Assembly (NCBI GenBank): GCA_903951425.1
Contig: CAJBBX010000038.1
Coordinates: 25,699 to 89,698, forward strand
Length of the DNA stretch: 64,000 nucleotides
From: an uncultured Chthonomonas sp.
GTDB lineage: Bacteria > Armatimonadota > Chthonomonadetes > Chthonomonadales > CAJBBX01
Reading direction: 5' to 3'
Positions 32,652 through 40,189 of the stretch are shown here, piece after piece; the stretch's first letter is position 1, and every line of letters begins with the position of its first letter. The translations under genes were made by a program, and so were the position numbers. The notes beneath the pieces were generated by a model that was given only the letters and a program-made list of their open reading frames with translations, searched no databases and was not told the DNA's origin.

Positions 32652-33373
32652 ACCTGCTGGCGATCGAGACATCGGGGCACGAGTGCGGAGCGGCCCTGAT
32701 GGCCGATGGGCAGATGGTTGCCGAACGACGCGTGGCCGATCCCATGCAGCTACTCCGGAACCTGACATCCGAAGTGATCGAGATGCTCGCCCAGCAGTCC
32801 CTGACGCTGGGCGATGTAGATATCTTCGCGGTCGACCTTGGTCCGGGCACCTTCACTGGACTGCGCATCGGCGTGATGGCGGCCAAGACGTGGGCGCACA
32901 CGCTTCGCAGGCCGCTGGTAGGGGTCTGCTCCCTCGATGTACTCGCCCATGCAAACGGCCCCGGCAACGACCGACTGCTCACGGTGGTTCGGTCGCGGTT
33001 TGGGACCGCGTATGCGCGCGTCTACACCGGCGGTCAGGTCGTGGCGCCCGCCGACGGAGGCATCGCCTGCGCCGACATGGCCGGTATCGCGCGCATGGTA
33101 GCCGAGGCAGGCGTAGGCACGATCCACGCCGTGGGCGACGCCCTTGCCCGGCACGCCGCCGAACTGGCGACGGAACTGGGTTCCGTGGGCGTCGCCGCCA
33201 CGATGGGATGGGGTGTGGCTCCATCGCCAACCCAACTCGCCGCACTGGCCGCCGTGCGAGCGGCCCGGGGCGAGTTCACCGACGCGATGGCGGCGGTTCC
33301 GCTCTACGTGGCGCCGCCCCCTGCCAGGCCAAACCTCAGAATAGGCTCGTCTGCGGCTGATATTGGCGGATGA
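32648..33373 (+). CDS. tsaB: tRNA threonylcarbamoyladenosine synthesis protein TsaB
   Basis: This 241-residue ASKHA-fold protein is the partner of TsaD in t6A synthesis. It opens MNLLAIETSGHECGAALM and carries VDLGPGTFTGLRIGVMAAK, the conserved TsaB loop (GPGSFTGLR). tsaD itself is not in the window. Its 3' end overlaps the convergent lexA gene by 38 bases. Confidence 0.94.
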   Translation: MNLLAIETSGHECGAALMADGQMVAERRVADPMQLLRNLTSEVIEMLAQQSLTLGDVDIFAVDLGPGTFTGLRIGVMAAKTWAHTLRRPLVGVCSLDVLAHANGPGNDRLLTVVRSRFGTAYARVYTGGQVVAPADGGIACADMAGIARMVAEAGVGTIHAVGDALARHAAELATELGSVGVAATMGWGVAPSPTQLAALAAVRAARGEFTDAMAAVPLYVAPPPARPNLRIGSSAADIGG

Positions 33374-33977
33374 GGCCGATCACTTTGCCGATGACCCGGC
33401 TGTCCTCGCGGTTGATCTCCATGGGCTCGTAGTGGGGGTTGGCCGGTACCAGCCGCACGCGCCCATCGACAAACTGGATGCGCTTCACGGTGGCCTCATC
33501 GCCCAGGAGCACCGCTACCAGGTCGTTGTTCTCCGCAGATGACTGGGGCCGGATGATGACCAGGTCGCGCGGCATGATGTGATCGCCGATCATGCTGTCT
33601 CCGCGGACCCGCAGGACAAAGGCGCCCTCGATGTTCCGCACGATCTCAACGGGTACCGGTACGTAAGTCTCAACGTTCTCGGTGGCGGTGATGGGCACGC
33701 CGGCGGCGATTGTGCCGACCAGCGGCAGGAACTCCACGCTGCGGTGCCCCCCAGGACCCGTGGTCCGGCCCACGATAGCGATGGACCTGGAGGTGCTCTT
33801 CCGGCGAATATAGCCCTTGCGCTCCAACGCGTCGAGGTGAACGGTAACCCCACGCAGGCTGGTGATTTCGAAGTGAGCGCCGATCTCGCGAATGGATGGC
33901 GGATAGCCTCGATCGTCAATGTAATCCGAAATGAACTGCAGGATTTGCTCCTGCCTCTCTGTCAGGCCTCGGGTCAT
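33336..33977 (-). CDS. lexA: LexA repressor
   Basis: This 213-residue SOS repressor and autopeptidase has a winged helix (TERQEQILQFISDYI... SIREIGAHF) with recognition region TSLRGVTVHLDAL. The peptidase domain has the Ala92-Gly93 cleavage site (GTIAAGVP), the nucleophile Ser128 (RGDSMIG) and the base Lys165 (EATVKRI). RecA-stimulated self-cleavage would induce the SOS regulon. The ATG has GGAGGTG upstream. An 18-bp palindrome inside its promoter is a strong candidate for its own operator. Confidence 0.96.
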   Translation of the reverse strand: MTRGLTERQEQILQFISDYIDDRGYPPSIREIGAHFEITSLRGVTVHLDALERKGYIRRKSTSRSIAIVGRTTGPGGHRSVEFLPLVGTIAAGVPITATENVETYVPVPVEIVRNIEGAFVLRVRGDSMIGDHIMPRDLVIIRPQSSAENNDLVAVLLGDEATVKRIQFVDGRVRLVPANPHYEPMEINREDSRVIGKVIGLIRQYQPQTSLF

Positions 33978-33999
33978 AGACGCCCACCTCCAGTGGCGG

Positions 34000-34017
34000 T
34001 GTAAGTGTACACTTACA
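34000..34017. promoter_or_regulatory. Candidate LexA operator (perfect 18-bp palindrome)
   Basis: TGTAAGTGTACACTTACA is a perfect palindrome, centred 31 bp before the lexA ATG. It covers the -10 box of the lexA promoter, as expected for autoregulation. It is unlike the E. coli (CTGT-N8-ACAG) and Bacillus (GAAC-N4-GTTC) boxes. Confidence 0.75.
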
Positions 34018-34032
34018 GGCGTCTACTGTCAA
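34004..34032 (-). promoter_or_regulatory. Sigma-70 promoter of lexA
   Basis: On the minus strand TTGACA (34032-34027), a 17-bp spacer and TACACT (34009-34004) form a near-consensus promoter. The -10 hexamer is inside the 18-bp palindrome. Confidence 0.75.
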
Positions 34033-34112: not shown

Positions 34113-34142
34113 TTGACAGGTCTTCCGGCGGTGCGGTACCAT
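34113..34142 (+). promoter_or_regulatory. Sigma-70 promoter before the 34.2-kb TIM-barrel gene
   Basis: TTGACA (34113-34118), an 18-bp spacer and TACCAT (34137-34142), about 80 bp before the TTG start at 34225. Confidence 0.5.
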
Positions 34143-34224
34143 ACGGTGATAGGGCTCTCGCTGAGTTCTGCGTTTCTGTGCGCCCGGCGCGCGGCACGCA
34201 ATCCCACCTACCTGGAGGGGTGCA

Positions 34225-35079
34225 TTGGGCATCAAACTGGCGGCGATCACCGACGAGATCTCGCAGGAGTTCGAGCACGCCCTCGACGTGCTGCTGGAGT
34301 ACGATGTTCGCGGCGCCGAGCTGCGGGGCCTCTGGGGCGTCAACATCGGCGACCTTGACCGTGCTCAAGCCGCCCGTGCCAAGGCTGCGCTGTCCGAGCG
34401 AGGCATGAGCGTGGCCTGCCTGGCGACGCCCATCTACAAGTGTGACATCGAGACGGACGACACCACCGTACACGGCCGCATGCATCTGGCCTCGTCGACG
34501 CCGTTGGCCGGCCAGATGGAGTTGCTCCGGCGATGCTGCGGGCTGGCCCACGAGTTCGGGACGCCCCTCATTCGTGTCTTCGCGTTCTGGCGCAAGGCCG
34601 CCCTCACGGCCGAGTTGGAGCAGCGCATCGTGGACGCGTTCGCCGAGCCCGCCGCCATTGCCAAGCAGGAGGGCGTCACGCTTCTGCTGGAAAACGAATT
34701 CGCCTGCATGATCGGCACGGGCGTCGAAGTGGCGCGCGTGGTGCGGGCTGTCGATTCGCCGCACGTCCGCGTCTGCTGGGATCCCGGCAACGCCGCGACT
34801 GCCGGTGAGAGGGCGTTTCCCGCCGGCTACGAGGCAACTCGCGGCCTGATCGACCACATCCACGTGAAGGACCTGACGCTGGCAGCAGACGGAGTCTCAC
34901 CTGAGTGGTGCGTCGTCGGTCAGGGCATCATCGGCTACGATGCGCACATCGCCGCCCTGCGGAATGACGGATACAACGGTTACCTGTCGCTGGAGACTCA
35001 CTACGTACCGAAGGGCGGAACACCGGAGGACGGCTCGAGGCCGTGCCTGCAAGCCCTGCGAACGCTCCTGGGGGTATAG
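34225..35079 (+). CDS. Sugar isomerase/epimerase-like TIM barrel
   Basis: This 284-residue protein of the AP_endonuc_2 family opens IKLAAITDEISQEFEHAL. TLLLENEF, VRVCWDPGNA, IDHIHVKDL and GYLSLETHY supply the Glu/Asp/His/Glu metal ligands of the family. The start is a TTG behind GGAGGGG. The likely role is isomerisation or epimerisation of a sugar or polyol; the substrate is unknown. It is distinct in sequence from the other TIM-barrel gene at 13.3 kb. The parvulin gene follows after seven bases. Confidence 0.82.
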   Translation: MGIKLAAITDEISQEFEHALDVLLEYDVRGAELRGLWGVNIGDLDRAQAARAKAALSERGMSVACLATPIYKCDIETDDTTVHGRMHLASSTPLAGQMELLRRCCGLAHEFGTPLIRVFAFWRKAALTAELEQRIVDAFAEPAAIAKQEGVTLLLENEFACMIGTGVEVARVVRAVDSPHVRVCWDPGNAATAGERAFPAGYEATRGLIDHIHVKDLTLAADGVSPEWCVVGQGIIGYDAHIAALRNDGYNGYLSLETHYVPKGGTPEDGSRPCLQALRTLLGV

Positions 35080-39295: not shown

Positions 39296-40189
39296 GTGCC
39301 TGCCGTTCCCCCCGCACGGCCGGGCTGCAACTGCATGCCTGCGCTGGTCTTGGAGGCCATGCGGCCCCGCCAGTGGTCGAAGAACCTCTTCGTCTATGCG
39401 GCCATGGTCTTCACTGACAACTGGCGGAGCTGGCCGCTGGTGACGCTCTGCTTCGGCATCTTCTGCCTGGTCTCTGGGGCGGTCTACCTGGTGAACGACA
39501 TCTCCGACCGCGAGCAGGACCGGGTCCACCCGGAAAAGCAGAGCCGACCCATCGCGTCCGGCCGGCTCCCTGTGGCGGCGGCCGCCGCGGCGGCCGGCCT
39601 GCTCGGGATCGGCGGCGCGGTCGCCTCGTTCGGGGTCTCGATATTGTTCGGTACCGGGGTCGTGGGCTACCTGCTGCTGCAGGTGGCATACACATTCGCG
39701 CTGAAGCACATGGTGCTGGTCGATGCATTCGCCATCGCCGCCGGGTTCGTGATCCGCGCAGCAGCCGGAGGATGGGCCCTGCACGTACCGGTATCGGCCT
39801 GGCTGCTGGTCTGTACGCTACAGCTGGCGCTTTTCCTAGCGTTCGGCAAGCGGCGCCATGAGTTGGTGGCTCTGGAGGCCGATGCGGCAGACCATCGGCA
39901 GGCCCTATCCTCCTACAGCTTGCCTCTACTGGACCAGATCATCGCCGTGACGCTGGGCGGGCTGACGGTCTCGTACGCCGTCTACTGCATCAACTCCCCC
40001 ACTGCCATCAGGCATCCCCTGCTTGCGCTGTCGCTGCCGTTCGTCATGTTCGGCGTGTTCCGGTACCTCTACCTGATCCACATCGAGCATCGCGGCGGCA
40101 CACCTGAGAAGATCCTGGCGCAGGACCGCACGATGCAGGTGGATCTGGGCCTCTGGCTGGCAGCGGTGGTCGCCGCATTCCGCTGGTGA
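39296..40189 (+). CDS. UbiA-family prenyltransferase, DPPR-synthase-like
   Basis: This 297-residue membrane protein has about 8 hydrophobic helices. The motifs RPRQWSKNLFVYAA and YLVNDISDREQDRVHPEKQ (with the NDxxDxxxD Mg-binding site) and RPIASG match decaprenyl-phosphate 5-phosphoribosyltransferase-like UbiA proteins, which attach phosphoribose from PRPP to polyprenyl phosphate. In actinobacteria this feeds arabinan synthesis. The product here is unknown, but the neighbouring GalE, RfaE2 and RfbD support a surface-glycan role. The start is a GTG; the ATG at 39335 is an alternative with a poorer ribosome binding site. Confidence 0.8.
   Translation: MPAVPPARPGCNCMPALVLEAMRPRQWSKNLFVYAAMVFTDNWRSWPLVTLCFGIFCLVSGAVYLVNDISDREQDRVHPEKQSRPIASGRLPVAAAAAAAGLLGIGGAVASFGVSILFGTGVVGYLLLQVAYTFALKHMVLVDAFAIAAGFVIRAAAGGWALHVPVSAWLLVCTLQLALFLAFGKRRHELVALEADAADHRQALSSYSLPLLDQIIAVTLGGLTVSYAVYCINSPTAIRHPLLALSLPFVMFGVFRYLYLIHIEHRGGTPEKILAQDRTMQVDLGLWLAAVVAAFRW

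Follow-up and report, generated by a model that had tools for sequence, protein, structure and literature searches.

The LexA box of E. coli is CTGT-N8-ACAG. In cyanobacteria, the box has been described as RGTACNNNDGTWCB or AGTACWNWTGTACT (PMC3091678). The LexA2 box of Leptospira, TTGTA-N10-TACAA, is a palindrome present only in the promoter of its own gene, and its binding was shown experimentally (PMC3789691). The binding motif has changed repeatedly, and 17 distinct LexA motifs were counted in 2021 (PMC8565304). Studies on LexA of Armatimonadota were not found in the open-access literature. Here, a lexA locus within a 64-kb stretch of DNA, referred to as the window, was compared with these systems and with its relatives.

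The minus-strand ORF listed first in Table 1 is a genuine lexA of a MAG from the Chthonomonadales (Armatimonadota; 6.08 Mb, 100% complete). Its product scored 197 bits against the TIGR00498 equivalog model, above the cut-off of 110.95, and comprises the domains LexA_DNA_bind (PF01726) and Peptidase_S24 (PF00717). The motifs for cleavage and catalysis were all found: AAG at 91 (Ala-Gly), GDSM at 126 (Ser) and TVKR/VKR at 163 (Lys). Near-identical lexA loci are present in relatives, with LexA identities of 98–99%. The original prediction had assigned lexA a TTGACA-N17-TACACT promoter with the perfect 18-bp palindrome TGTAAGTGTACACTTACA lying over the -10 box, and both coordinates and sequence were confirmed. 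On the minus strand, TTGACA is followed by 17 bp, TACACT, GGAGG and the ATG (33975-33977). A second promoter-like sequence (TTGACA-N18-TACCAT, plus strand, 34114-34143) is oriented away from lexA, toward a sugar-phosphate isomerase-like ORF at 34225.

Table 1. Features of the lexA locus in the window. Family f1 is the family of the window's genome.
Feature	Position	Strand	Basis and remarks
lexA	33336..33977	-	213 aa; helix-turn-helix and S24 self-cleaving peptidase; TIGR00498, PF01726, PF00717
-35 box TTGACA	34027..34032	-	Sequence; kept in lexA promoters of family f1
-10 box TACACT	34004..34009	-	Sequence; TACACT or TATACT in 7 family f1 genera (those with an intact lexA upstream region)
Shine-Dalgarno GGAGG of lexA	33987..33991	-	Sequence
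Proposed LexA operator AGTAGAC-GCCT-GTAAGTG	34010..34027	-	Between and touching -35 and -10; element conserved across the order
Strong half-site AGTAGAC	34021..34027	-	Base frequencies 0.87-0.98; half of the Fimbriimonadia dinB/imuB palindrome
Degenerate right half-site GTAAGTG	34010..34016	-	RT-N2-GT conserved in lexA; RTRNGTG type in imuB of the own genus
Palindrome TGTAAGTGTACACTTACA of the original prediction	34000..34017		Covers -10 TACACT; equals operator right half plus -10 region

Some perfect 18-bp palindrome within the window is unremarkable, with about 0.24 expected under uniform composition and two found, the other in a GC-rich stretch at 39579. One on the -10 of lexA is unlikely to be there by chance alone. 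TGTAAGTGTACACTTACA stays perfect in three genomes of the genus, and it includes AGTGTAC/GTACACT, a half-site variant also found in imuB promoters of the family; both observations would suit direct binding of the LexA dimer to the palindrome in this genus. This reading is improbable, however. At ≤3 mismatches, a second copy was absent from the window, as had been predicted, and from the whole 6.08-Mb genome, so that the proposed genome scan for similar sites near SOS genes yielded none. The promoters of imuB and dinB mostly differed from TGTAAGTGTACACTTACA at 7–10 positions and were no closer than controls, with two imuB promoters at 5 and 6 mismatches. The symmetry is lost outside the genus: across the lexA promoters of 26 Chthonomonadales genomes, where chance gives about 2.4 of 9 pairs, pairing was 9/9 only in the window's genus, 4–7/9 in other genera of family f1 and 1–5/9 elsewhere. 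Moreover, the two half-sites within TGTAAGTGTACACTTACA overlap rather than being separated by 4 bp. Because it has one genome copy at that threshold and is perfect only within the genus, the palindrome is probably not the LexA box. As a regulon motif it was rejected, given the single copy, the mostly control-level match at imuB and dinB and the genus-limited symmetry. Family f1 retains mostly the right arm, GTACACTTA, which includes the -10, and the left arm is variable; with retention in 6/7 genera, GTACACTTA is kept slightly beyond what a -10 requires.

The lexA promoters across the whole order carry a conserved element, AGTAGAC-N4-RT-N2-GT. A de novo motif search in the lexA promoters of 18 genera returned ACAGTAGACg-N3-GT. 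When anchored and weighted by genus, the base frequencies were 0.87–0.98 over A-G-T-A-G-A-C, followed by N4, R, T (0.98), N2, G (0.78) and T (0.68). In family f1, the element comes immediately after the -35 and occupies the -35/-10 spacer. In the sister family f3, the promoter lies farther upstream, and the element overlaps or comes after the -10. The constancy of this sequence while the position of the promoter shifts argues for an operator rather than a part of the promoter. Thus, the probable LexA binding site at the window lexA is AGTAGAC-N4-GTAAGTG, which overlaps the left arm of the palindrome. TGTAAGTGTACACTTACA may have arisen where the right half of this operator abuts the -10 region, TACACTTA, and its symmetry appears to be without a role.

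The right arm of the palindrome would belong to the operator if LexA of the window's family contacted AGTAGAC-N10-GTACACT, a pair of half-sites with unusual spacing. AGTAGAC (once AGCAGAC)-N10-GTRYACT was present in all seven family f1 genera examined, with TTA next in 6/7, and lexA of Fimbriimonadia has GTAGAC-N18-GTCTAC. The N10 spacing, however, is mostly explained by the fixed N17 promoter spacing together with the TACACT -10, families f2 and f3 are without the arrangement, and the sites at imuB and dinB have N4 spacing, which makes this contact rather unlikely. The Fimbriimonadia arrangement (L018, L013, L020, L021, L239) consists of facing half-sites with unusual spacing around the -10. 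As a regulon motif of that class, GTAGAC-N18-GTCTAC was not above control in most genomes, and several matches were the lexA arrangement itself.

The preferred element, with N4 spacing, recurs at SOS genes other than lexA, namely at imuB and dinB, at uvrA, ruvB and nrdJ in Fimbriimonadia, and partly at recA in family f3. A matrix built from lexA promoters only was applied to imuB and dinB upstream regions unseen in training and to 317 control upstreams. For imuB, 9/9 genera scored above the 95th percentile of controls (MWU p 6e-7) and for dinB 5/8 (MWU p 1.5e-4), the p-values being overstated since the compared sequences are related and not independent. A de novo search on imuB alone yielded AGTRKAC-type half-sites in an N4 dyad, as in AGTGTAC-TAAA-GTACACC, AGTAGAC-AAAA-ATACACT and AGTGTAC-ATAT-ATACACG. 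In Fimbriimonadia, a sister class, the de novo search on 28 dinB/imuB upstreams returned aGTaGAc-N4-gTCtACt (log-likelihood 195, shuffles 32–40). There, dinB and imuB have the full palindrome AGTAGAC-N4-GTCTACT, with AGTAGACGCCAGTCTACT as an example at imuB. When 61 Fimbriimonadales genomes were searched blind with AGTAGACNNNNRTCTAC, 28 distinct sites came up. Of these, 11 are at gene starts, namely those of dinB, imuB, uvrA (three genomes), ruvB and nrdJ (B12-dependent ribonucleotide reductase), with the gene families checked on one or two examples each. In Chthonomonadales, GTAGAC was found ≤260 bp upstream of uvrA in 11/23 cases, and in family f3 it lies near the recA promoter in about 9/15 loci, often without the leading A. 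AGTAGAC-N4-GTCTACT is apparently an undescribed LexA box common to two Armatimonadota classes, as judged against part of the 17 motifs of the 2021 count (PMC8565304). The copy at the window lexA would be a degenerate one, its right half deviating from the dyad. The lineage-specific LexA box of the original prediction is therefore supported in this form, though not with TGTAAGTGTACACTTACA as its exact sequence.

In the window's own genome, the pattern RGTRKACNNNNRTRNGTG (RGTRKAC-N4-RTRNGTG) has exactly two copies, at lexA and imuB; having been derived from these two sites, it is informative only as to the absence of more. Copies near SOS genes thus exist for this overlapping pattern but not for the palindrome. 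In a genus-mate (L181), a dnaE2-like start follows imuB. The full palindrome AGTAGACNNNNGTCTACT at ≤2 mismatches was not enriched in the own genus and genome (17 sites vs. 31 for a control pattern). A search of the cinA-thpR-recA type operon region in the window's genus and family revealed no box at recA, and no GTAGAC was found within 260 bp upstream of uvrA in the genus. Because recA and uvrA are without the box, the SOS regulon of the own genus may be very small, perhaps lexA and imuB only. Two other patterns were tried and rejected. The first one-sided pattern, GTAGACGNNNGTANGT, was not above its reversed control at one mismatch in 30 genomes. The strict AGTRKACNNNNRTMYACT gave few matches in Chthonomonadales; many are unexplained, and some lie at imuB or at a gene resembling exodeoxyribonuclease III.

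Several further observations were made around these sites. The recA genes of family f3 (L155, L158-L161, L168, L169) have a long conserved leader from promoter to start (GCCGGAGGCCACYCGCG ... GTCGCTGCGTCCTCACG); no Rfam family was above threshold in it, and it is possibly a cis-acting RNA. In two f3 genera (L208 and L214, site at 1501), a small exodeoxyribonuclease III-like (EEP) gene has AGTRKAC-N4-RTMYACT close to its start and is possibly an extra SOS gene. Copies of the box also occur 5' of small sigma-like/HTH proteins in two genera each of Chthonomonadales (L197 and L213) and Fimbriimonadales (L282 and L286). At L370 (G001 C27:24613), an AAA ATPase gene is preceded by GGTGTACCATAGTGCGTG at a distance of about 30 bp, followed by a TOPRIM-like ORF and adjoined by a methyltransferase-like ORF; it is possibly a damage-responsive defence gene.

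The helix segment S-LRGVTVHLDAL is nearly invariant in LexA of Chthonomonadia and Fimbriimonadia. The original prediction that the recognition helix region (TSLRGVTVHL) is not of the E. coli type was borne out, and the helix tracks the type of box. Among 116 distinct LexAs, GTAGAC was present within 130 bp upstream for 41/47 with the helix S[LI]RG[VA] vs. 2/69 others (Fisher 2e-22, a significance overstated by the relatedness of the sequences). The SLRG/SIRG helix and the half-site also occur together in Omnitrophota (L038, with AGTAGACTTCTGTCTAGA just 5' of the lexA start), in WWE3 (L024) and in one further MAG (L030). The SSxTV-type LexAs of other Armatimonadota classes (L349-L365) have RAAC-N4-GTTY in 11/17 upstreams and GTAGAC in 1. 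Among the SLRG-type lexA upstreams, the window's included, RAAC-N4-GTTY was found in 0/44; with AGTAGAC as half-site, the box is, as predicted, unlike the SOS boxes of E. coli and Bacillus. That AGTAGAC is instead bound by a different regulator of DNA-repair genes is highly improbable: it is present in the lexA promoters of both classes, its occurrence parallels the type of LexA helix across phyla, and SSxTV-type LexAs have the other box in its place. This correlation of helix type and box type is the strongest argument that LexA, and not another factor, reads AGTAGAC. It is likely that one phylum holds two LexA specificities set apart by the helix (SSxTV with CRAAC-N4-GTTTG, SLRGVT with AGTAGAC-N4-GTCTACT), with helix and operator travelling together in a natural switch of specificity.

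Taken as a whole, the comparison makes it very likely that LexA with the SLRGVTVHL helix binds the 18-bp dyad AGTAGAC-N4-GTCTACT and autoregulates lexA through an operator of one strong and one degenerate half. This model is based on an element that is conserved, does not depend on where the promoter lies, is found at SOS genes and is linked to helix type; binding and repression are inferred. The autoregulation of lexA, already proposed from the position of the palindrome, is very probable. LexA on the operator would fill the spacer between the two promoter boxes and keep RNA polymerase out, until its RecA-stimulated self-cleavage at the Ala-Gly bond relieved repression. The outcome would be ordinary SOS autoregulation through a weak operator. 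The translesion-polymerase genes of Fimbriimonadia have full or near-full copies of the dyad. Since the lexA operator combines one good and one poor half and the sites at Fimbriimonadia dinB and imuB have two good halves, lexA may be repressed less tightly than these genes. Looser repression is usual for autoregulated genes.

Another motif with a clear helix-to-operator link would provide a predictive rule for uncultured lineages, by which SOS regulons could be read from MAGs, and Armatimonadota offer a testable pair of related LexAs differing in specificity. The locus also illustrates that a perfect promoter palindrome can mislead; here the probable operator was recognized by its conservation among relatives and not by symmetry.

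Compared with the known systems, the E. coli box is likewise an SOS operator that overlaps promoters and serves autoregulation, but it differs in half-site, spacing and helix (SPNAAEEHL vs. SLRGVTVHL). The Leptospira LexA2 box is confined to its own promoter, as TGTAAGTGTACACTTACA would be, yet its sequence and spacing differ, and the evidence in the present case is comparative. The cyanobacterial AGTAC-N4-GTACT resembles the new box in the AGT..AC-N4-GT..ACT ends and the spacer; its half-site AGTAC is two bases shorter than AGTAGAC, so that the two boxes do not share one matrix. The Gram-positive (Bacillus-type) box CGAAC-N4-GTTCG is, like the new box, a dyad whose halves are 4 bp apart and which precedes lexA and repair genes; it differs by its half-site, CGAAC instead of AGTAGAC. 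In Armatimonadota, this Gram-positive-type box is itself carried, as RAAC-N4-GTTY, by the SSxTV-type LexAs.
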